Source: Chloroflexota bacterium (GTDB lineage Bacteria; Chloroflexota; Dehalococcoidia; Bin125). Taken from it: a stretch of 64,000 bases of DNA. A program made the position numbers and the translations under genes. The notes under the pieces were generated by a model. That model saw only the letters and a program-made list of their open reading frames with translations, did not search any database and had not been told where the DNA came from. Every line of letters begins with the position of its first letter. Within the stretch, counting starts at the first letter, position 1. The stretch lies in assembly GCA_009838915.1 (NCBI GenBank), contig VXQT01000034.1, forward strand, positions 99,896-163,895, written 5' to 3'. Shown here piece by piece: positions 3,938-62,747 of the stretch.

Positions 3938-5275
3938 TTAGCGTAGGCCGTCACCGGCGGGCGCAGGCGGCGCGGGGCCGGATCGACCCAGCCAGATGGA
4001 AGCAACGGTGACTGCAAACAGACCGCCGCCAAGCAGGAAGAGTCCCTGGCGCACGCCTGCAGCGTCGGAGACGCCGCCGACGAGCAGCAAGGCCAGCATC
4101 GAGACCGCATTGGCGAGCATCATCTGGGTCGAGAACAGCCGTCCGCGCATCGCCGGCGGCGCGCGCTCCTGGAGCAGGGTCTGGGCCGGTGCGTTGACCA
4201 TGGCGTAGGCGAGGCCCAGCGGAAACGCCATGATCAGGGTCGCGGCCAGCAGCCAATCCTGGGTCGAGCCGGTTGAGCGCAGGAAGTCGAGCACGCCGAA
4301 CATCGTCACGATCACGGTGATGACGGCGAGACCAACAGAGGCCATCGCGGCGATCCGGAATCTACGGCCCAACCAGGGCACGCAGACCAGCGCCAGCAGC
4401 GCGCCGAATCCGGTCGGCCAAAAGACGAAGACGGCGTCCTCCTCGGCCCGGCCCAGCACGTCGTGCACGAACTGCGGCACCAGCACCGCAAACATGAACA
4501 GCATCATCACGCCAGAGATGAGCTGGATCAGCGCCAGCGCCGTGAGTCGATCCTGCCAGACGAGCGCGCCGGTCGCCCTGATGTCGGCCAGTGTGGCGGC
4601 AAAGGCCGCGCGAATCTGGCCCACATCCTCCGAGACTCGGTGGGGCACGCGGTCGAACGGCGTCAGCGCCGGCAGGCAAGCCAGCAGCACTGCCGAGCAC
4701 GCCAGGGCCACCGCGCTGAGGATGTACGACACATCGAAGCCGATCACCTTGAGCATGATCGGCGCGAGCACGACCAGTCCGATGAGCTGCATCGAGGTCG
4801 CCGTGAACTGGAAAGCAGAGTTCGCGGAGAGGAGCTGTTGACGCGCGACGAAGCGTGGCAACGCCGCCGCGCCGGCAGGCACGGCGAACTGCCCCGCGAG
4901 CGCGGTGCCGAAGGCGACGGCGTAGACCGCGCCGACCGAGACGTTGTCGGCCAGCAAGAGCAGCGCCGTCAGGCCGGCACGGATGATCACGGCGACGATC
5001 AGTACTCGGCGCTTGTCCAGGCGGTCGAGCAACACGCCTGCGATTGCACCGGTTGCGACGGGCGGGGCGGCCAGGCAGATCACCAGCAGGGTCGAGGCGA
5101 ATGGCGAGCCGGTCTGTTCCAGCACCCAGATCAGCAGGACGAACTGCAGAGCCGAGTTGATGATTAACTGGATGCTGGTCGCGGACCAGAGCGCGAGGAA
5201 GGGTCGGTTGCGCAGGAGCGGCGCGACGGGCGGATCGGGCGGTGCGCCCGACCCAGTCCTGGAGTCGGATGTCAC
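3938..5275 (-). CDS. MFS transporter (EntS/multidrug exporter-like)
   Basis: The protein has 445 residues and about 12 membrane helices, with the MFS loop-2 signature as GVLLDRLDKRRVL (about 80-92) and a second copy near AMRGRLFSTQMM in the C-terminal half. The family resembles the enterobactin/macrolide exporter branch (a single MFS_3 domain). The substrate cannot be told from sequence. The GTG start overlaps the pyrF stop (GTGA), so the two are probably translated together. No functional link to pyrimidine synthesis is obvious. Confidence 0.88.
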   Translation of the reverse strand: MTSDSRTGSGAPPDPPVAPLLRNRPFLALWSATSIQLIINSALQFVLLIWVLEQTGSPFASTLLVICLAAPPVATGAIAGVLLDRLDKRRVLIVAVIIRAGLTALLLLADNVSVGAVYAVAFGTALAGQFAVPAGAAALPRFVARQQLLSANSAFQFTATSMQLIGLVVLAPIMLKVIGFDVSYILSAVALACSAVLLACLPALTPFDRVPHRVSEDVGQIRAAFAATLADIRATGALVWQDRLTALALIQLISGVMMLFMFAVLVPQFVHDVLGRAEEDAVFVFWPTGFGALLALVCVPWLGRRFRIAAMASVGLAVITVIVTMFGVLDFLRSTGSTQDWLLAATLIMAFPLGLAYAMVNAPAQTLLQERAPPAMRGRLFSTQMMLANAVSMLALLLVGGVSDAAGVRQGLFLLGGGLFAVTVASIWLGRSGPAPPAPAGDGLR

Positions 5276-6093
5276 GACGAGAGTCGGGCAGGCTTGGCCG
5301 CGTTGGCCGCGGCGCGCAAGTCCTGAGCCGCTTCGCGGATGTCCTCCTCGTCACCCGCATAGATCACTGACCGCGAAACCGAGACCAGTAGTCCTTGACC
5401 GTCGGCGTCGACGCCGGCGGCGACGGACGCCTCCAGGTCGCCGCCCTGCGCGCCGACTCCGGGCAGCAGGATGGGCAGGTCGGGACAACGCGCGCGGACC
5501 TGTGCCAGTTCGTCGGGCCAGGTCGCGCCGACGACCAATCCCAGGTTGTCGTGGTTGGCCGCCGCCCAGTCGCGAGCCAGCGAGGCGACGGAGAGGTACA
5601 GCGGTTCGCCCTCGCCTACTTGCAGGGACTGCAGTTCGCCGGCGCCCAGATTCGACGTCCGGCACAGCGCGAACGCGCCGCGTTCGGGACGTTGGAGGAA
5701 TGGCGCGACGGCATCGCCGCCCAGATACGGATTGATCGTCAGCGCGTCGACACCGAACCAGTCGAAGGCCGCCTGCGCATATGCCTCGGCGGTGTTGCCG
5801 ATGTCGTTGCGCTTGGCGTCGAGAATCACAAACGCATGCGGGGCGACTCGGCGGACGGTCTCGATGGTGTCCTTGAGCGCCTGCCATCCGGCGAAGCCCG
5901 CCGCTTCGTAGAAGGCCGATTGCGGCTTGTAGGCGCAGACCAGGTCAGCGGTCGCTTCGATCACGCGAGTGTTGAAACTCAGAATCTCGTCCGCCGCCGT
6001 TCGGTTCGGTTGCGGGTCGAGACCGACGCAGATCAGCGAGTCCGCAGACTCCATGGCGCTGGCAAGTCGTTCGCGGAATGGCAGCTCCGGCAT
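5272..6093 (-). CDS. pyrF: Orotidine 5'-phosphate decarboxylase
   Basis: PyrF makes UMP from OMP in the last step of pyrimidine synthesis. The 273-residue length and layout match the longer type-2 OMP decarboxylases. Visible are GLDPQPNR (24-31), the lysine-bearing YKPQSAFYE (55-63) and the catalytic D92-A-K94-R-N-D97. The C-terminal phosphate loop region (SVSRSVIYAG) is present. I place the start at the ATG at 6093. A longer reading to 6318 would add a low-complexity Arg-rich leader that overlaps the divergent comB gene. There is no Shine-Dalgarno; TACGCT lies exactly six bases upstream, suggesting a leaderless mRNA. Confidence 0.94.
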   Translation of the reverse strand: MPELPFRERLASAMESADSLICVGLDPQPNRTAADEILSFNTRVIEATADLVCAYKPQSAFYEAAGFAGWQALKDTIETVRRVAPHAFVILDAKRNDIGNTAEAYAQAAFDWFGVDALTINPYLGGDAVAPFLQRPERGAFALCRTSNLGAGELQSLQVGEGEPLYLSVASLARDWAAANHDNLGLVVGATWPDELAQVRARCPDLPILLPGVGAQGGDLEASVAAGVDADGQGLLVSVSRSVIYAGDEEDIREAAQDLRAAANAAKPARLSS

Positions 6094-6099
6094 GTCGAT

Positions 6100-6105
6100 A
6101 GCGTA
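6100..6105 (-). promoter_or_regulatory. -10 element of leaderless pyrF
   Basis: TACGCT on the minus strand, six bases before the pyrF ATG at 6093. No Shine-Dalgarno. The transcript would start at or next to the A of the start codon. Confidence 0.6.
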
Positions 6106-6125
6106 TCCCGCAGATCGCCCCGGCG

Positions 6126-6131
6126 TAGGCT
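6126..6131 (+). promoter_or_regulatory. -10 element of leaderless comB
   Basis: TAGGCT six bases before the GTG at 6138. Only 20 bp separate it from the opposite -10 element of pyrF, so the two promoters are back to back. Confidence 0.6.
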
Positions 6132-6137
6132 GCGGAC

Positions 6138-6887
6138 GTGTCACACGACGAATCCCTTGAGGTCGAGGTCTACCTGCAACCGCCGCCCGCCGACGCGCTC
6201 GCGGGCGCATCGGCGATCGTGCTGGACATCTTCCGCGCGACGACCGTCCATGCCGCCCTGTTTGCCGGCGGTGCGGAGGCCATCTATCCGGTCGCGGATT
6301 TCGCTGCCGGCGTCGCACTGCGCGAGATGTTGCCCGGCAGTGTGCTGATCGGCGAAGTCGGCGCCTTACCTCCGGCAGAGGCCGCGTTCGGCAACTCGCC
6401 GACCGAGTTCACCGCAATGGAGGTCTCGGGCTGGACCGTCGTCCATGTGACCAGCAACGGGACTCGCGCGCTGAGCGAAGCCCGGCAAGCGGACATCGCG
6501 CTGTCGGGCTGTCTGCGCAACGTGAGCGCGACGCTGAGTGCTGTCCTGGAGCGCAGGCCCGAGCGGATTGCCATCGTCTGCAGCGGCGACGGCGGCGGCA
6601 CAGCGCCGTCGGTGGAGGACAGTTTCGCCGCCGGCGCGTACGTCGCGGCGCTCAAACGCATGCGACCCGACATCCGCCTGCGCGGCGGCGCGAGACTGGC
6701 GCTCAAGCTCTACGACGCCTACGGACGCGCCCCCGCTCGCGCCTTCGCCGACTCTCCTCACGGCGACCATCTGCGCAAGCTGGGATTCGACGCCGACTTC
6801 GGGTTTGCCGGCGCGCTGGATGCCAGTTCCGACGTGATCGAACTGGCCGCCGATGCCGCAGGACGACCGGTGTTGCGGGTCCGCTAG
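6138..6887 (+). CDS. ComB-like 2-phosphosulfolactate phosphatase family protein
   Basis: The protein has 249 residues with family motifs VLDIFRATTVHAAL (about 29-42), GEVGALPP, GNSPTEF and VHVTSNGTRAL. ComB dephosphorylates 2-phosphosulfolactate in methanogen coenzyme M synthesis. Bacterial homologues occur without that pathway, and their substrate is often unknown; no ComA or ComC partner is visible here. The gene is divergent from pyrF with only 44 bp between the starts. The GTG start has no Shine-Dalgarno but has TAGGCT exactly six bases upstream. Confidence 0.87.
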   Translation: MSHDESLEVEVYLQPPPADALAGASAIVLDIFRATTVHAALFAGGAEAIYPVADFAAGVALREMLPGSVLIGEVGALPPAEAAFGNSPTEFTAMEVSGWTVVHVTSNGTRALSEARQADIALSGCLRNVSATLSAVLERRPERIAIVCSGDGGGTAPSVEDSFAAGAYVAALKRMRPDIRLRGGARLALKLYDAYGRAPARAFADSPHGDHLRKLGFDADFGFAGALDASSDVIELAADAAGRPVLRVR

Positions 6888-15319: not shown

Positions 15320-15748
15320 ATGCCGCTCAGTTCCGACGAGATCTTCGAGCGCTATCCGCCGCTCCGCGACATGGAGGCGGTGGCGCTGTTCCAGGAACTG
15401 GGCTACCGCTTCACCGACGCCGGCGACGGCTGGTGCGAGATCACGCTGAACGCATCCTCCAAGACGCACAACCTGTACGGCATCGTGCATGGCGGCGTCT
15501 GGCTGTTGGTCGCCGACTCGGCAATGGGCGGCGCGCTGGGGACGATCCAGGCCGAGGGCGAGCGAGTGATCACCGCGCAGTCGGAGTTCCGCTGGCTGCG
15601 CGGTCTGGACGGCGACGTGATTCGCGCGCGTGCCGAGGTGATCCGGCGGGGCCGGACGCTGAGCCACTGTTCGGTCGATCTCTACGACGAGCAGGGCCGT
15701 CACATCGGCCATGGCAACGGCACCTATGTGATGCTTCCACCCGAGTAG
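15320..15748 (+). CDS. PaaI-type hot-dog thioesterase
   Basis: The protein has 142 residues. The hot-dog signature NLYGIVHGGVWLLVADSAMG (51-70) matches PaaI/4HBT enzymes, where the HGG loop and the Asp of ADSAMG bind and attack the acyl-CoA thioester. The C-terminal strand HIGHGNGTYVM is typical. It probably releases CoA from an aromatic or short acyl-CoA made by neighbouring catabolic enzymes; the substrate is unknown. No clear ribosome site is seen, and the gene lies close behind the DinB pair. Confidence 0.88.
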   Translation: MPLSSDEIFERYPPLRDMEAVALFQELGYRFTDAGDGWCEITLNASSKTHNLYGIVHGGVWLLVADSAMGGALGTIQAEGERVITAQSEFRWLRGLDGDVIRARAEVIRRGRTLSHCSVDLYDEQGRHIGHGNGTYVMLPPE

Positions 15749-16617: not shown

Positions 16618-18027
16618 ATGAGTCCGCCTCCCGTCCAGTACACGCGCACCGAGGACGACATCGACATCGCCTGGGTCGAGCGCGGCGTCGGCAAGCCATT
16701 GGTGGTGTCAACCGGACCAATGATCCCGCTCAGCACGGGCTGGGAACCGGGCGGGATCTGGGAGCGGCTGTCGCACTCGTTCCGGGTGATTCGATTCGAT
16801 CCGCGAGGTTGTGGACTTTCGGAGCGCGACGGGGTGTTCGGATCGTTCCATGACGAGGCGATGGATCTGGCAGCGGTCGTCAACGAAGTAGCCGAGCCCC
16901 GCGTCGCGCTGATGGGGCACTACATCGGCACGCCGGCCGCGGTGATCGCGATGCTGAACGAGCCGGAGCGTTACACGCACCTGATGCTGCACCTGCCGAT
17001 CCCGATGGGCGGCGAACGATCAGGAATGTCCCAACAGAGCGAAATCAACGATCTCATCGACGGCACGGTGGAGAACCTGTTGCGGCTGGGATGGCAGCAT
17101 CACGACGAAGCGGCGCGGCGGGCGTTGTTGACGATGATCGCGCCCACGGCCGACGAACACACTCTGCGCGATCTGTCGCAGACGATGCATCACTATCCAT
17201 CGATGAATCGGCTGTTCGGCCTGGTGCGGGAGATGCGCGATCTTGATCTGCGGGATCAGTTGCGTGACGTCGAGATACCGACGCTGATCTCCATCCCATA
17301 TGAAGGAGAAGGCACCGAGGCGGGGTACAGTTCGACCTCGCGCGAATGGGCGCGGATCATTCGGGGCGCGCGTCTGGTCGTTGCGCAGGACGACACGCCG
17401 GTACTGGTTGACGGCGCGCCGATCATCACCCAGATCGCCGAAGCGCTTGAAGAGTTCATCGGGGTCGAGCAGTCGATCGAAACGGCCGGCCAGGCGACCC
17501 GCACCATCCTGTTTACGGACATCGAAGGCTCGACATCGCTGGTTGACCGGCTCGGCGACACCCGAGCGAGATCGATCACCAGGGAAATCGAGCAACTGAC
17601 ACTGAGCGCCATCAGGGAGCATGACGGCGTACAGGTCAAGACGATGGGCGATGGCGTACTCGCCTGGTTCGGCGCCGCATCGGCGGCGGTCGAGACGGCG
17701 GTGCAGGTCCAGCACGGGCTCGCCAATCATGAGCGCTACAGCGATGTCTTTGTGCGAATCGGCATCAGCGCGGGCGAACCGATCGCCGAGTCGGATGACC
17801 TGTATGGCACGACCGTGAACCAGGCTGCGCGAATCATGTCGATCGCGCGCGGCGGAGAGATCCTGGTGTCGGACCTGCTGCGTGGTCTGCTCCAGGGTCG
17901 TGGATTCAGCTTTGAGGATCAGGGCCGGCACGAGTTGCGCGGATTCCGTGAGTCGGTGCAGCTCTTTAAGGTCGACTGGCGCGCGGAGGCGTCCACTCCA
18001 GCCGCGACGGAAGGGTCGGAGACATGA
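16618..18027 (+). CDS. Degenerate alpha/beta-hydrolase fused to a class III adenylate cyclase
   Basis: The protein has 469 residues. Residues 1-285 form an alpha/beta-hydrolase domain (RFDPRGCGLSE, LMGHYIGTP). The nucleophile elbow reads G-H-Y102-I-G with tyrosine in place of serine, and the usual C-terminal His position is also missing, so this half is probably a sensor and not an enzyme. Residues 296-455 are a cyclase domain with metal aspartates Asp301 (FTDIEGS) and Asp345 (KTMGDGV), purine-selecting Lys341 and Asp394, and transition-state Arg405 (VNQAARI). The Lys/Asp pair points to ATP, giving cAMP. Its stop overlaps the start of the methyltransferase gene (ATGA). Confidence 0.93.
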   Translation: MSPPPVQYTRTEDDIDIAWVERGVGKPLVVSTGPMIPLSTGWEPGGIWERLSHSFRVIRFDPRGCGLSERDGVFGSFHDEAMDLAAVVNEVAEPRVALMGHYIGTPAAVIAMLNEPERYTHLMLHLPIPMGGERSGMSQQSEINDLIDGTVENLLRLGWQHHDEAARRALLTMIAPTADEHTLRDLSQTMHHYPSMNRLFGLVREMRDLDLRDQLRDVEIPTLISIPYEGEGTEAGYSSTSREWARIIRGARLVVAQDDTPVLVDGAPIITQIAEALEEFIGVEQSIETAGQATRTILFTDIEGSTSLVDRLGDTRARSITREIEQLTLSAIREHDGVQVKTMGDGVLAWFGAASAAVETAVQVQHGLANHERYSDVFVRIGISAGEPIAESDDLYGTTVNQAARIMSIARGGEILVSDLLRGLLQGRGFSFEDQGRHELRGFRESVQLFKVDWRAEASTPAATEGSET

Positions 18028-19013
18028 TCGAAATGACGAAGCGTGAACGAGTCCGAGCCGCAATCTTGGGCGAACCGGTCGACCGAGCACCCGCATCCCT
18101 CTGGGGGCACGATTTCCTGCGTGAATGGAGCAACGACGAACTGGTCGGCGCGACCTGCGAACAGTACGAGACCTACGACTGGGACTTCATCAAGATCAAT
18201 CCACGCTGGTCGATGTTCCCGGAGGCCTGGGGCGCGGTCTACTCGCCGCCCTCGGATCAGTCCAATCCAACGATGGTCAGTTCGGCGCTGGAAGAACTCG
18301 ACGAGCTGCATGACGTGGTCTCGGTCCACGCCGAGCGCGGCGTCCTGGGCGAGCACATCGAGTCAACACGATTGGTAGTCGAACGCACCCGAGGAGAGGT
18401 CGATGTCGTACAGACCGTGTTCTCCCCGATGGCGACGTTGGGCTTGATGTTCGGCCATCCGAGAGCGTTCAAGCAGGCCGCGCGCGAGGCGCCGGCGGCC
18501 GTGCATGCGGCGATCGCGCGGATCACCGACACGATCATCCACTACAGCCGAGCCAACATGAACGCAGGTGCATCGGGCGTGTTCTACGCGCCGCTGCAAT
18601 GGGCCAGCTACGCCAACTCCACGGCCGAGTTCTACCGGGAGTTCGGCCGGCCGTATGACATGCAGGTGCTCGACGCAATCCGAGACGCAGAATTCAACAT
18701 CCTCCACGTCTGCTTCACCAACAACATGCTGGCCGACGTGCTCGACTATCCCGTCCACGCCTTCAACTGGGATGACCGCGACGAAACCAACTCCGGTCTC
18801 GCCGATATCTGGTCCCAGACCGACAAGGCAGTGATGGGCGGCGTCAGCCGGAGCGGATTGGGAGAGCTGAACGCTGACGAGATTCGGGCGCAGGCATCGC
18901 AAGCGGCAGGCGTAGCCAACACCCGTGTGTTCGTCACCGGAGGCTGCTCGATTCCCCCGCACACGCCGCACGAAAATCGTGCGGCAGTGGCAGCCGGAGC
19001 TCGGGGGAACTGA
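18024..19013 (+). CDS. UroD/MtaA-family cobalamin-dependent methyltransferase-like protein
   Basis: The protein has 329 residues with the uroporphyrinogen decarboxylase barrel (TKRERVRAAILGEPVDRAP at the start, FHVC-type strand, GGCS near the end). Heme-pathway UroD would have an N-terminal RQAGR loop, which is absent. Instead there is His228-x-Cys230 and, 78 residues on, Cys308, matching the zinc-binding HxC...C pattern of MtaA/MtbA/CmuA methyltransferases. I infer a methyl transfer or O-demethylation role. No corrinoid protein gene lies beside it. The start overlaps the cyclase stop by four bases, so translation is probably coupled. Confidence 0.85.
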   Translation: MIEMTKRERVRAAILGEPVDRAPASLWGHDFLREWSNDELVGATCEQYETYDWDFIKINPRWSMFPEAWGAVYSPPSDQSNPTMVSSALEELDELHDVVSVHAERGVLGEHIESTRLVVERTRGEVDVVQTVFSPMATLGLMFGHPRAFKQAAREAPAAVHAAIARITDTIIHYSRANMNAGASGVFYAPLQWASYANSTAEFYREFGRPYDMQVLDAIRDAEFNILHVCFTNNMLADVLDYPVHAFNWDDRDETNSGLADIWSQTDKAVMGGVSRSGLGELNADEIRAQASQAAGVANTRVFVTGGCSIPPHTPHENRAAVAAGARGN

Positions 19014-35726: not shown

Positions 35727-37142
35727 ATGAGACAGATACGCCAGACATTCGCCGCGTTCGTCGTGCGCGACTTCCGCTTCATGTGGGGCGGATCGCTGTT
35801 GTCGGTGACGGCGTTCATGACGTCGTTCTCCCTGATCCCCTCGGTCGCCTACGAGCTCACCGGCAGCTATGCGGCGGCGGGCATCGCGATGCTAGGTTCA
35901 GGTATCTCGCAGACGCTGCTGGGACCGATCGGCGGCGTGATCGCCGACCGCTATCGCAAAAAACCGCTGGTCGTCGCGGGGCAGGCGATGCCGGGGGTGC
36001 TGCTCGGTGCGCTGGGCGCGCTAATCGTGACGGACCTGATTTCGATCCCGCTGCTGGTCCTGGCGACGCTGGTGATGGGCGCGGGCTTCTCGCTGATGGG
36101 TCCCGCGCGTCAGGCCTGGACCGGATTCATCGTGCCGCGCCGGCTGCTCCCCAACGCCGTCGCGTTGCAGCAAATGTCGATGAACACCGGCCAGGTGCTC
36201 GGGCCGACGTTGATCGCGCTGTTCGCCACGTTCATGGTGCTCGAGGGACGCAACACGGGCATTCTCTTCCTGCTTGTGGCGTCGTTCTTCGCGATCGTCG
36301 TGCCGCTGACCGCGTCGATCCGCACCGAGGGTCCGGCCACACCCGTCGAGCAGCGGCGGGCCATGCGGGTGGAACTGGCCGAGGGGTTCCGCTACCTGCG
36401 CAGCAATCCGCGGCTGCGCATCCTGTGGGCCTACTTCCTCCTGATCGTCGCCTGCGGATGGGGCTTTCAGACGTTGCTGCCCGGCGTCCTGGCCCAGGAG
36501 TTTGGACGCGCGCCTACAGATGTTGGGCCGACGTTCCTGATCTTCGGCGTGTCCTCGCTGGCAATCAACATCGTGTTGGCCGGCGCGGTGTCCGGGCGCT
36601 GGGCCTGGCCGCTGTTGATGATCATGGGTCTGGTCATGGCGATCGGGTTCTGGCTCGTCGCGATCGCGCCGAGTTACGGCGCATTCCTGATCCTCGGCGC
36701 ATTCATCGGCACCGGACGCTCCGGCACGATGCTGGTCAACCAGTCGCTGATGATGGGCAACACGAAGCCCGCCTACTTCGGCCGGGTGATGTCGTTCGCG
36801 ATGATGGCGTTCGGCTTCCAGGCGCTGTTTGGACCGGTCTGGGGCGCGATCGCCGATGCAATTGGCGGGCCCGAGACGATGGCGCTGATCGGCTTCATGG
36901 CGGCCGGCGCCACCGTCTTCATGCTGTTGGGCTGGCTGCGGACCCGAAACCTGCCGCTCGAAGCGGGCACCGCCGCCGCGAGCATGGGCCGACGAACGGG
37001 TGTGGACGTGCAGCGGCCCGAGCCGTCGGCGGGCGAATCACCGAACGGCATTCAGTCGCAACCGGCCTTCGCCGCCCAGCTCGCCCCGGTGGTGCTGATG
37101 GAGGGCCAGAAGCCGCGTCAGGTGGTCGCCGGAGGAGATTAA
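35727..37142 (+). CDS. MFS transporter, first of three
   Basis: The protein has 471 residues and about 12 membrane helices. The loop-2 motif GGVIADRYRKKP (about 71-82) and the duplicated GPARQAW are typical. It is homologous to the next gene throughout and shares the unusual tail LAPVVLMEGQKPR. Substrate unknown; similar proteins are drug or siderophore exporters. The start is the ATG at 35727 (AGGTGG upstream) rather than the in-frame one at 35673, which lies inside the divergent regulatory region. Confidence 0.87.
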   Translation: MRQIRQTFAAFVVRDFRFMWGGSLLSVTAFMTSFSLIPSVAYELTGSYAAAGIAMLGSGISQTLLGPIGGVIADRYRKKPLVVAGQAMPGVLLGALGALIVTDLISIPLLVLATLVMGAGFSLMGPARQAWTGFIVPRRLLPNAVALQQMSMNTGQVLGPTLIALFATFMVLEGRNTGILFLLVASFFAIVVPLTASIRTEGPATPVEQRRAMRVELAEGFRYLRSNPRLRILWAYFLLIVACGWGFQTLLPGVLAQEFGRAPTDVGPTFLIFGVSSLAINIVLAGAVSGRWAWPLLMIMGLVMAIGFWLVAIAPSYGAFLILGAFIGTGRSGTMLVNQSLMMGNTKPAYFGRVMSFAMMAFGFQALFGPVWGAIADAIGGPETMALIGFMAAGATVFMLLGWLRTRNLPLEAGTAAASMGRRTGVDVQRPEPSAGESPNGIQSQPAFAAQLAPVVLMEGQKPRQVVAGGD

Positions 37143-37151
37143 GCTCGAACG

Positions 37152-38531
37152 ATGGGACACCTACGGGCCAGCTTTGAGGCGCTCGGAGAACGCGAGTTTC
37201 GGCTGCTCTGGTCCGGGTCGCTGTTGGCTACGACCGCGTTCATGACGACCTTCATCCTCGTCCCGATCGTGGCCTACGAAATCACAGGTTCCTATGCGGC
37301 GTCGGGTCTGGCGCAAGCCGGGATGGTGTCACAGCTGATCTTCGGGCCGTTTGGAGGCGTGCTGGCCGATCGCTACAAGAAGAAACCGTTGGTGTTGGGC
37401 AGCCAGATCATCCCGTGCATGATCATCGTGGCGACGGGCGCCCTGATCGTGGCCGATGCGATCACCATTCCCATGCTGTTCGCGTCAACGTTCCTGATGG
37501 GCGCGACGTTCTCGCTGATGGGTCCGGCGCGCCAGTCGTGGGTAGTGGAACTGGTGCCGCCGCGTCTCCTGCCAAATGCAGTGGCGCTGCAAAACATGTC
37601 GATCAACGTGGCGGCGGTACTGGGTCCTCTGGCAGCGTCGATCCTGGTGCTGTCCATGGGGCTGAACTCAGGCGTCCTGTATCTGCTTGTCGCCGCGCTG
37701 TTTGTGGTGGTCGTGCCCTTGACGTTGATGATCCGCGGCTCCGGTGCCGCGACGCCGAAGGAACAGCGCAAGGCGGTGTTCTCGGAGATGGCGGCCGGCC
37801 TGAGCTACATCACGAGCCGTCCGCAGTTACGCAGTTTGTGGCTGCTGTTCATCGTGGTCGTGGTGACCGGATTTGCGCTGCAAACGCTGATTCCGGGGCT
37901 GTTGAGTCAGGAATTCAACCGATCGGAGCAGGAGGCGACGCTGATCGCGACGATCTGGGGGGTCACCGCGTTGCCGATCAACATCGTGCTCGCGGGCATG
38001 GTCGGAGGACGCTTTGCCTGGCCGTTGCTGTTCCTTTCGTCGGCGTCTCTGGCAGGCGGCATCTGGCTGACAGCGGCTGCGCCGAGCTTCGCGGTGCTGC
38101 TGATCGTCTCCGGCGTCGCGGGCGGCGCGCGCTCAGCGGTCATGCTGCTGAATCAGGCGATCCTCATGGCCAACACGCGGCCAGAGTACTTCGGCCGGGT
38201 GATGAGCTGGGTATTCATGGCCTTCGGCGTGCAAGGCCTGCTGGCGCCCGTCTGGGGGATCGTGGCAGATAGCATTGGCGGTCGGGAGACGCTGTACGTC
38301 GTCGGGCTGGCGCTCTTGGCGGCCACGGTGCTGATGATGCTCTCGCGGGCGCGTACCCGCCATATCCCACTCGAGGTCGGCACCGCCGCCGCCTCCATCG
38401 CCGCCGAACAGCCGCCCGAACCCGAGGCCGCCGCACGCGGGCCGCTCACAGCCCCCAGCCCCGCCGTCAGCCCCCTCTTCGCCGCCAGACTCGCCCCTGT
38501 TGTGTTGATGGAGGGGCAGAAGCCTCGGTGA
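37152..38531 (+). CDS. MFS transporter, second of three
   Basis: The protein has 459 residues and about 12 membrane helices, with GGVLADRYKKKP (about 71-82), LMGPARQSWV and NARPEYFGRVMSWVFM-like segments. It is a clear paralogue of the first MFS gene, nine bp away, and ends at the same motif (LAPVVLMEGQKPR). The last residues overlap the third MFS gene by four bases (GTGA). The tail after the last helix (about 420-459) is Pro/Ala-rich and probably cytoplasmic. Confidence 0.87.
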   Translation: MGHLRASFEALGEREFRLLWSGSLLATTAFMTTFILVPIVAYEITGSYAASGLAQAGMVSQLIFGPFGGVLADRYKKKPLVLGSQIIPCMIIVATGALIVADAITIPMLFASTFLMGATFSLMGPARQSWVVELVPPRLLPNAVALQNMSINVAAVLGPLAASILVLSMGLNSGVLYLLVAALFVVVVPLTLMIRGSGAATPKEQRKAVFSEMAAGLSYITSRPQLRSLWLLFIVVVVTGFALQTLIPGLLSQEFNRSEQEATLIATIWGVTALPINIVLAGMVGGRFAWPLLFLSSASLAGGIWLTAAAPSFAVLLIVSGVAGGARSAVMLLNQAILMANTRPEYFGRVMSWVFMAFGVQGLLAPVWGIVADSIGGRETLYVVGLALLAATVLMMLSRARTRHIPLEVGTAAASIAAEQPPEPEAAARGPLTAPSPAVSPLFAARLAPVVLMEGQKPR

Positions 38532-47042: not shown

Positions 47043-47048
47043 TACGCT
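47043..47048 (+). promoter_or_regulatory. -10 element of leaderless moxR
   Basis: TACGCT six bases before the ATG at 47055. No Shine-Dalgarno is visible. Confidence 0.6.
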
Positions 47049-47054
47049 TCCCGA

Positions 47055-48038
47055 ATGACTACTGCTATAACGCCTCCGACCCTGGCCGATGTCGCCGAGA
47101 TGGCCGCCCGTGTGCGCGAGAACGTCGGCCGCGTGATTGTTGGGCGCGAGCAAGTGCTCGACTACACGTTGGCTGCGATCCTCTCCGAGGGTCACATCCT
47201 GCTCGACGATGTGCCCGGATTGGGCAAGACGATGCTGGCCAAGTCGTTCGCGCGCTCGATCGGCTGCTCGTTTCGGCGCATCCAGTTCACTCCGGATCTG
47301 CTGCCCTCCGACGTAACCGGCGTCAACATCTACAACCAGAAGTCGGCTGAGTTCGAGTTCCGCGCCGGTCCGCTGCTGGCTCAACTGGTGCTGGCTGACG
47401 AGATCAACCGCGCTTCTCCGCGTACGCAGGCGGCGCTGCTCGAGGCGATGGAGGAGCGCCAGCTCACGGTGGAAGGCGAGACGATGGCGATGCCGCGTCC
47501 GTTCCTCGTGATCGCCACTCAGAATCCGGTGGAACTCGAAGGCACATTCCCGCTGCCCGAAGCGCAGCTCGACCGCTTCTTGCTGCGCCTGCGCATGGGC
47601 TATCCCGACGCCGAAGAGGAAGACGCGATCCTCCTGCGCTTCGAGCGCGCGCAACCACTGGAGGAGCTCGATCCCGTGGTCGAATCGGAACATCTGCGGC
47701 TGATGGTCAAGACCGTCGAGCAGGTCCGGGTGAGCGAGGCCGTGCGCGGCTACATCGTCGCGATTGTCCAGGCTTCCAGGCAGGAACAGGCCTTTGAGCT
47801 CGGCGCATCGCCTCGCGCCTCGCTGGCGCTGTTGCGCACGACCCGAGCCCTGGCCGCGATTCGCGGACGCGACTTCGTCCTGCCTGACGATGTGCAGGAA
47901 ATGGCGCGCGTCGTGTTGCCGCACCGACTGATGCTCTCGGCCGACGCGAGGTTGCGCTCGTCGACGCCGGAGTCGCTGCTTGAGCAAATGTTGAGCCGAG
48001 TGCCGGTCCCAATCGAGGCGGCCGCCGCCGGCAGCTAG
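47055..48038 (+). CDS. MoxR-type AAA+ ATPase
   Basis: The protein has 327 residues: Walker A GLGKT (55-59), Walker B LVLADEINRA (Asp115, Glu116), sensor-1 IATQNP and sensor-2 ASPRAS. MoxR proteins act as chaperones for protein complexes and usually lie next to DUF58 genes, as here. The start is the ATG at 47055, because the conserved ATPase begins shortly after. There is no Shine-Dalgarno; TACGCT is exactly six bases upstream, suggesting a leaderless transcript. DUF58 follows after 36 bp. Confidence 0.94.
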   Translation: MTTAITPPTLADVAEMAARVRENVGRVIVGREQVLDYTLAAILSEGHILLDDVPGLGKTMLAKSFARSIGCSFRRIQFTPDLLPSDVTGVNIYNQKSAEFEFRAGPLLAQLVLADEINRASPRTQAALLEAMEERQLTVEGETMAMPRPFLVIATQNPVELEGTFPLPEAQLDRFLLRLRMGYPDAEEEDAILLRFERAQPLEELDPVVESEHLRLMVKTVEQVRVSEAVRGYIVAIVQASRQEQAFELGASPRASLALLRTTRALAAIRGRDFVLPDDVQEMARVVLPHRLMLSADARLRSSTPESLLEQMLSRVPVPIEAAAAGS

Positions 48039-57800: not shown

Positions 57801-58493
57801 TCAGCCGTCCCAGCGCACGGCGATCGGCTCGCACTGAACGATCCGATCGACATACAGCGCCGGCGTACCTACGTGCTCGACTGGAATCTCGCCGGGTTCG
57901 ACAATCTCTTCAACTTCCGCGATCACCAGGTCGGCCGCCGTGGCCATCACCGGATTGAAGTTGCGGCCGGCGAGACGGTACTGCAGGTTGCCGAGCCGGT
58001 CGGCGCGCCAGGCCTTGATCAACGCAACGTGCCCGCGCAGAGGACGTTCGAGCAACCATCGCTCGCCGTCCAGTTCGAGGACCTGCTTGCCGTCCTGCAT
58101 CATCGTGCCCAGACCGGTCCTGGTCAGCACGCCGCCGAGTCCCGCGCCGGCAGCGCGCAGCCGTTCGATCAGCGTGCCCTGGGGCACCAGTTCCAGCTCC
58201 ACTTCGCCGGCGCGATAGAGCGACTCGAATCGAGAATTGCGTCCGCCCGATGCGCGGATCGCGAAGGTCGCGATCACCCTGGCCAGTTGCCGGTCTTCGC
58301 ACAACTCGTCGAGCAGATCACCGAGCCCGATGTTGTTGGCGACCGCGGTGAGATTGGTCTGGCCGCTGCGCTTCAGGGCGAGAATCAGGTTGGACGGCGT
58401 GCCGGCGGAGACAAAGCCGCCGACAAGGATGGTTGAGCCGTCGCAGATATCGGAAACGGCGTCGTCGGGTGAGTCGAAGACCACGGCGATCAT
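57801..58493 (-). CDS. 3-oxoacid/ketoacid CoA-transferase, alpha subunit
   Basis: The protein has 230 residues: GSTILVGGFVSAGTPSNLI (about 19-37; the Gly-rich CoA loop), then VANNIGLGD and the C-terminal VEEIVEPGEIPVEHV. Similar to the PcaI/AtoD family. The start has no Shine-Dalgarno; TAGGAT lies exactly six bases before the ATG, so the mRNA may be leaderless. It is divergent from the CaiB-type gene by 108 bp. The substrate is unknown. Confidence 0.92.
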   Translation of the reverse strand: MIAVVFDSPDDAVSDICDGSTILVGGFVSAGTPSNLILALKRSGQTNLTAVANNIGLGDLLDELCEDRQLARVIATFAIRASGGRNSRFESLYRAGEVELELVPQGTLIERLRAAGAGLGGVLTRTGLGTMMQDGKQVLELDGERWLLERPLRGHVALIKAWRADRLGNLQYRLAGRNFNPVMATAADLVIAEVEEIVEPGEIPVEHVGTPALYVDRIVQCEPIAVRWDG

Positions 58494-58499
58494 ACGATG

Positions 58500-58505
58500 A
58501 TCCTA
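58500..58505 (-). promoter_or_regulatory. -10 element of leaderless CoA-transferase alpha gene
   Basis: TAGGAT on the minus strand, six bases before the ATG at 58493. No Shine-Dalgarno. Confidence 0.55.
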
Positions 58506-58601
58506 TGCGCTGCCCCGCCGGAGGAGTGGGCGGAGGGATCAATCAGATATCTTGCTCCTATCCGCGCATGTTTGCGCGACCCCGTCCGAAGGAGTTGGAT
58601 T

Positions 58602-62072: not shown

Positions 62073-62735
62073 TCAGCCCCAGTGCTCGATGATCGACCGC
62101 CAGATGTAGTTCCCGTCTGTCCCGCCGAGCAGCGCGTCGGAGGCACGCTCGGGATGCGGCATCATGCCCAGCACGTTGCCAGTCGGATTCACGATCCCGG
62201 CGATGTCGCGCAGCGAGCCGTTGGGGTTCTCGCCGTGGTAGCGGAACAGCACGCGACCTGCGTCCTCCAACTCGTCCAGTACCTGCGGCGATGCGAAGTA
62301 CTGCCCTTCGCCATGCGAAACAGGCAGTTGCACGATCTGGCCGGATTCGCAGGCGCCGGTGAAGCCGCTGTCGATGCGCTCGACGCTCAGTGCTTGCGGC
62401 TGGCAGCGAAACTGCATCGACGCGTTGCGCTGCAGGATGCCGGGCAAGAGTCCCGCTTCGCAGAGAATCTGAAATCCGTTGCAGGAGCCGAACACCGGCC
62501 GTCCGGTTGCGGCGAATCGATCGAGTGCGGACATGACCGGGGAGAAGCGCGCGATCGCCCCGCAGCGCAGGTGGTCGCCGTAAGAGAAGCCGCCGGGCAG
62601 GATTACGCCGTCGTAGTCGTCGAGCGATGTCTCGCGGTGCCAGACGCGTTCCGCCGTTTGTCCCAGGTCCTCCAGCGCATAGACGCAGTCCCAGTCGCTC
62701 CAGGTTCCGGGGAAGACGAGCACGGCAAACCGCAT
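62073..62735 (-). CDS. purQ: Phosphoribosylformylglycinamidine synthase subunit PurQ
   Basis: The protein has 220 residues, a class I glutamine amidotransferase. Cys85 (GSCNGFQ), His194 and Glu196 (PHPERA) form the triad; VFPGTWSD and GGFSYGDHLR are typical of PurQ. It supplies ammonia to PurL, whose gene follows by one base. The ATG has no Shine-Dalgarno, and TACGCT lies exactly six bases before it, suggesting a leaderless mRNA. PurS, the third partner, is missing from this locus. Confidence 0.96.
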   Translation of the reverse strand: MRFAVLVFPGTWSDWDCVYALEDLGQTAERVWHRETSLDDYDGVILPGGFSYGDHLRCGAIARFSPVMSALDRFAATGRPVFGSCNGFQILCEAGLLPGILQRNASMQFRCQPQALSVERIDSGFTGACESGQIVQLPVSHGEGQYFASPQVLDELEDAGRVLFRYHGENPNGSLRDIAGIVNPTGNVLGMMPHPERASDALLGGTDGNYIWRSIIEHWG

Positions 62736-62741
62736 GAAGTG

Positions 62742-62747
62742 AGCGTA
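62742..62747 (-). promoter_or_regulatory. -10 element of leaderless purQ
   Basis: TACGCT on the minus strand, six bases before the ATG at 62735. No Shine-Dalgarno. Confidence 0.6.

Follow-up and report, generated by a model that had tools for sequence, protein, structure and literature searches.

Genes led by a TANNNT hexamer and read as leaderless have been described in bacteria by Zheng et al. 2011 (PMC3160421), who report them at an average of 19.2% in Actinobacteria and at 4.7% (4.0-5.7; 4/12 genomes) in Chloroflexi, where the motif is given as TAtaaT in genomes of medium G+C content. In Deinococcus-Thermus, mutation and reporter experiments have identified a TANNNT lying a few base pairs before the open reading frame as the -10 element that makes a leaderless mRNA, with a requirement on spacing and with expression raised by an added -35 element (PMC12340547).

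The genes that we consider here, from an uncultured lineage of the Dehalococcoidia, resemble those of Zheng et al. in having the same TANNNT at the same position, ~12 bp from its first T to the start, and they are read in the same way. Their frequency of ~5-6% matches the Chloroflexi values of that study and is several times below its value for Actinobacteria, while the motif, TA[C/G]N[C/A]T at 66% G+C, is unlike the one given for Chloroflexi; what goes beyond that work is the uncultured lineage and the conservation of the spacing, demonstrated gene by gene across orthologues. A TANNNT adjoining the reading frame is likewise shared with Deinococcus-Thermus, where it concerns ~30% of reading frames (PMC12340547) as against ~5-6% in our case, which is known from sequence alone. 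As far as two reports on mycobacteria and other Actinobacteria describe it (PMC4633059, PMC3898074), leaderless and Shine-Dalgarno (SD)-led mRNAs are mixed there as they would be here, in a high-G+C bacterium. Our search of the open-access literature turned up no map of transcription start sites for this group. The phenomenon is known in bacteria including Chloroflexi, though little documented in this lineage; the lineage, the tight spacing and the genus-wide conservation of individual genes are new.

Five genes with a hexamer six bases before the start codon

The window, by which we mean the whole stretch of 64,000 nucleotides that was analysed, belongs to a genome of 2.87 Mb in 38 contigs with 66% G+C. 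An initial annotation had pointed to five genes in it that carry TANNNT, exactly six further bases and then ATG or GTG; we find this arrangement at all five, and Pfam bears out the five gene identities. On the minus strand, pyrF (5272..6093), encoding orotidine 5'-phosphate decarboxylase (PF00215) and having a conserved start, is preceded by the putative -10 element TACGCT at 6100..6105, the whole reading TACGCT-atcgac-ATG (6105-6091), and transcription would begin on the A of the ATG at 6093. Facing away from it on the plus strand, a comB-like gene of the 2-phosphosulfolactate phosphatase family (6138..6887; PF04029) has TAGGCT at 6126..6131 in the context TAGGCT-gcggac-GTG (6126-6140), which would place its transcription start on the G of the GTG at 6138. 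The two genes were said to stand back to back within 50 bp, and are 44 bp apart. The third gene, for a moxR-family AAA+ ATPase (47055..48038, plus strand; PF07726), reads TACGCT-tcccga-ATG (47043-47057), with the hexamer at 47043..47048 and a conserved CTGCTGR before it that resembles an extended -10 element (TGN). The remaining two lie on the minus strand: CoA-transferase subunit alpha (57801..58493; PF01144), with TAGGAT at 58500..58505 in TAGGAT-catcgt-ATG (58505-58491), and purQ, the glutaminase subunit of FGAM synthase (62073..62735; PF13507), with TACGCT at 62742..62747 in TACGCT-cacttc-ATG (62747-62733). A conserved CTGRCC 17 bp upstream of the purQ hexamer could be a weak -35 element.

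By composition, such a hexamer is expected at one fixed position in ~0.5% of genes, in agreement with the earlier estimate of less than one per hundred. With 59 genes called in the window, this amounts to an expectation of ~0.3 genes. A sixth gene, at 37152 (TAAGCT-cgaacg-ATG), also fits the pattern, but it was left out since the TAA belongs to the preceding gene as its stop codon and an SD sequence lies upstream. This overlap, in which a stop TAA or TAG of the upstream gene opens a TANNNT six bases before the next start, spans window positions 37140-37154 and recurs at 15348-15362 of another stretch of the genome (L029). It probably arises by chance; if it were real, the stop codon could double as a -10 element.

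The claim that none of the five genes has an SD sequence holds for four of them. CoA-transferase alpha departs from it, its hexamer TAGGAT itself holding an AGGA. Two congeneric orthologues, however, carry TAGCAT, which retains TANNNT, so the hexamer is better understood as a -10 element than as an SD sequence. At the same gene, the near-palindrome CATACGATGATCCTATG (window 58491-58507) presents a -10-like hexamer on both strands. We considered whether the near-palindrome, TACGATGATCCTATG, forms a promoter for both directions, its two starts lying 12 bp apart, and rejected this, as the symmetry is lost in congeners.

For each gene we compared up to 15 congeneric genomes, the window's own included, bearing in mind that relatives are not independent draws. 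TANNNT at exactly 6 nt from the start codon is retained in 72 of 74 congeneric upstream regions of the five genes. The spacing is exact in 15/15 genomes for pyrF (as TACNNT), for comB, for CoA-transferase alpha (as TAGGAT or TAGCAT) and for purQ; for moxR it is exact in 12 of 14 orthologues, the other two having 8 nt. In L054, L057, L058, L061 and L063, the start codon of pyrF or comB occupies a different place in the protein alignment, and the hexamer has shifted along with it. Congeners differ in the three central bases of the hexamer, and the sequence farther upstream is diverged, the commonest base having a mean share of ~0.6 over positions -45 to -20. The position of the motif and its conservation are thus direct observations, and the pattern suggests that the six-base spacing has been conserved by selection. 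The back-to-back geometry of pyrF and comB is not strictly conserved among the congeners, in most of which the gap between the two -10 boxes is 19-20 bp, with wider gaps in L058 and L063. At the family level, two of four pyrF genes (L067, L068) have the six bases and a third (L065) has seven; beyond the family, most orthologues of purQ and moxR carry either an SD sequence or neither of the two signals.

A single-position peak across the genome

TANNNT is a short pattern, and the gene at 37152 fits it solely through a stop-codon TAA; it was therefore conceivable that a few chance hexamers had been picked out by eye. For a gene-based count we sampled 660 kb of this genome, window included, with 533 genes, whose starts were chosen by a purpose-built coding-potential caller to which the sequence upstream of the start is invisible. 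Genes in which the stop codon of the preceding gene could supply the TA (window 37152, L029 15360) were removed. TANNNT starts at -12 in 31 of the 533 genes, against a background per position that averages 3.7 over -60 to -15 and 2.0 over -30 to -15; the neighbouring positions -13, -11 and -10 have 7, 0 and 0. About one gene in eighteen (~5-6%) is accordingly of the leaderless type in this genome. Outside the window, TANNNT lies at -12 in 26 of 477 genes, the mean per position there being 3.2 (Poisson P ~2e-15), and this count is an unbiased test, since no selection by the initial annotation could have taken place there. At internal in-frame ATG or GTG codons, used as a control, TANNNT occurs at -12 in 4 of 6902 cases, and alternative starts of the same genes contribute just a handful of extra candidates.

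A scan of the whole genome that is independent of gene calls, with the pattern TASSCT-N{3,10}-ATG, gave the same picture. A spacer of 6 accounts for 41 of the 100 matches listed, against a mean of 8.4 per other spacer; a spacer of 7 accounts for 18 and the remaining lengths for 5-10 each. With TASSAT, spacer 6 is found in 23 of 74 matches, against a mean of 7.3 per other spacer. The peak of TANNNT at -12 to -7 that had been proposed as a genome-wide check is hence clear in the gene-based sample as well as in the gene-call-free scan. Together with the spacing kept in nearly all orthologous upstream regions, the out-of-window peak and the gene-call-free one refute chance, to which we assign a practically negligible probability.

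The corresponding whole-genome scan with TASSCT and GTG showed no peak at spacer 6, for which reason the six-base rule is mainly an ATG rule. GTG starts make up 5 of 33 genes in the gene-based set as first counted, and the GTG cases rest on this set and on the comB orthologues.

Promoter and translation signals

It is also conceivable that TANNNT is a translational signal on a longer mRNA, such as an alternative ribosome-binding element, rather than the -10 element of a promoter. The fixed distance to the start codon would be as expected of such a signal, and we found no -35 consensus: upstream of the TANNNT genes none was enriched over shuffled sequences, the weak CTGRCC candidate at purQ being the only one. 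However, the hexamer is concentrated in genes that need a promoter of their own, with 16 of 150 divergent genes (10.7%) having TANNNT at -12, compared to 2 of 97 genes (2.1%) whose co-directional neighbour lies within 20 bp. The three bases that never vary in it, T-12, A-11 and T-7, are those that matter most in a -10 element, and at moxR the TGN of an extended -10 is kept, a feature that is not general (3 of 31 genes) and is conserved at moxR only. A pyrimidine occupies -1 in 25 of the 31 TANNNT genes, compared to 50% of the rest (P 7e-4). This is the usual initiator context of a transcription start site, and fits a transcript that begins on the purine of the start codon. Finally, TANNNT shows no obvious complementarity to the tail of the 16S rRNA, which ends in the standard CCTCCTTTC with its CCTCC anti-SD. 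A translational role is for these reasons very unlikely, and the features of the sequence point instead to the hexamer being a promoter -10 element.

The housekeeping sigma factor is of the ordinary kind: RpoD (L231) has a canonical region 2.3/2.4 as well as region 4, and aligns without gaps to SigA of known structure through region 2.3/2.4. A -35 element is not obligatory in sigma-70 promoters, and its missing consensus is consistent with promoters dominated by their -10 element, the strength of such promoters being unproved. A second divergent pair of leaderless-type genes, 48 bp apart, encodes a PTPS-family enzyme and an MFS transporter (L024:16532-17029, minus strand, and 17078-18328, plus strand). 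Since the footprints of two RNA polymerases should overlap at this pair, the promoters may exclude each other.

Just one of the 31 TANNNT genes has an SD sequence, compared to 232 of the 502 others (46%; P 3e-7), and this sole case is the AGGA within a TAGGAT hexamer. The description of these genes as mostly central metabolism, on the other hand, does not capture a special property, as other leaderless-type genes of the genome have varied functions, among them an MFS transporter, an ABC ATPase, the delta subunit of DNA polymerase III, a penicillin amidase and a SpoIIE-type phosphatase.

A real -10 element could still be followed by leaders of 1-3 nt or by heterogeneous starts, in which case the transcripts would not be strictly leaderless. 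The gene-call-free scans show a mild rise at spacer 7 (18 and 14 matches, among those listed), two congeneric moxR genes have 8 nt, and 7 genes have their TANNNT at -13. The dominant spacing, in contrast, is exactly 6, the canonical distance from the -10 element to +1, and the step from pyrimidine to purine at the start codon resembles an initiator. We therefore regard short leaders as rather improbable, though less so than the other two alternatives.

Probable leaderless genes in the lineage and in the phylum

Positional peak, conservation of spacing, SD depletion, enrichment in divergent genes and the pyrimidine at -1 all fit the leaderless reading of the initial annotation, and support it as the best one. 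Very probably, we are dealing with sigma-A (RpoD) promoters that yield leaderless mRNAs, side by side with normal SD genes in one genome. The housekeeping holoenzyme would recognise a -10 element TANNNT, mostly TA[C/G]N[C/A]T, at -12 to -7 from the start codon; because of this position, transcription would start on the first base of the ATG or GTG and produce an mRNA that has no 5' leader. The first gene would then be translated in leaderless fashion, with a ribosome carrying initiator tRNA recognising the 5'-terminal start codon independently of SD pairing. For the 5' end of the RNA as for the mode of translation, we reason from established knowledge of other bacteria. The genome would thus be a mixed one, with SD sequences in ~46% of the other genes and a leaderless type in ~5-6%.

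Other lineages of the phylum were sampled at 100-200 kb each, a size at which a low frequency can be missed. Two congeners (G160, G155) have a clear excess at -12 and a member of the same family (G167) a weaker one; the excess is also seen in another Dehalococcoidia family (G170) and is marginal in G180, while nine samples of 100-200 kb (G005, G171, G074, G138, G084, G019, G110, G102, G150) showed no significant excess. In G017, a genome of high G+C content from another Chloroflexota class, TANNNT is raised at -14, -13 and -12, with 5, 4 and 5 of 83 genes, and several of the matches overlap stop codons; judging from this sample (L226-L230), its lineage is maybe richer in leaderless genes, with a looser spacing.

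For the wider picture, we see the chances as evenly balanced. It would comprise a near-absolute six-base rule in this Dehalococcoidia genus, maintained by selection for each gene individually throughout the genus, and promoters with little or no -35 element, so that start codon and transcription start form what is in effect one coupled element. The trait would be patchy in the phylum, occurring in this family, in one other Dehalococcoidia family and in one other class-level lineage, with none detected in the nine other sampled genomes.

Leaderless-type genes, with RNA 5' ends as predicted here, are herewith documented in a deep, uncultured lineage of the Chloroflexota. It follows that start prediction for the genomes of this group should model a -10 element at -12 besides the SD sequence. 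Moreover, the five genes in ~15 species constitute a clean set for learning how selection holds promoter and start codon in register.
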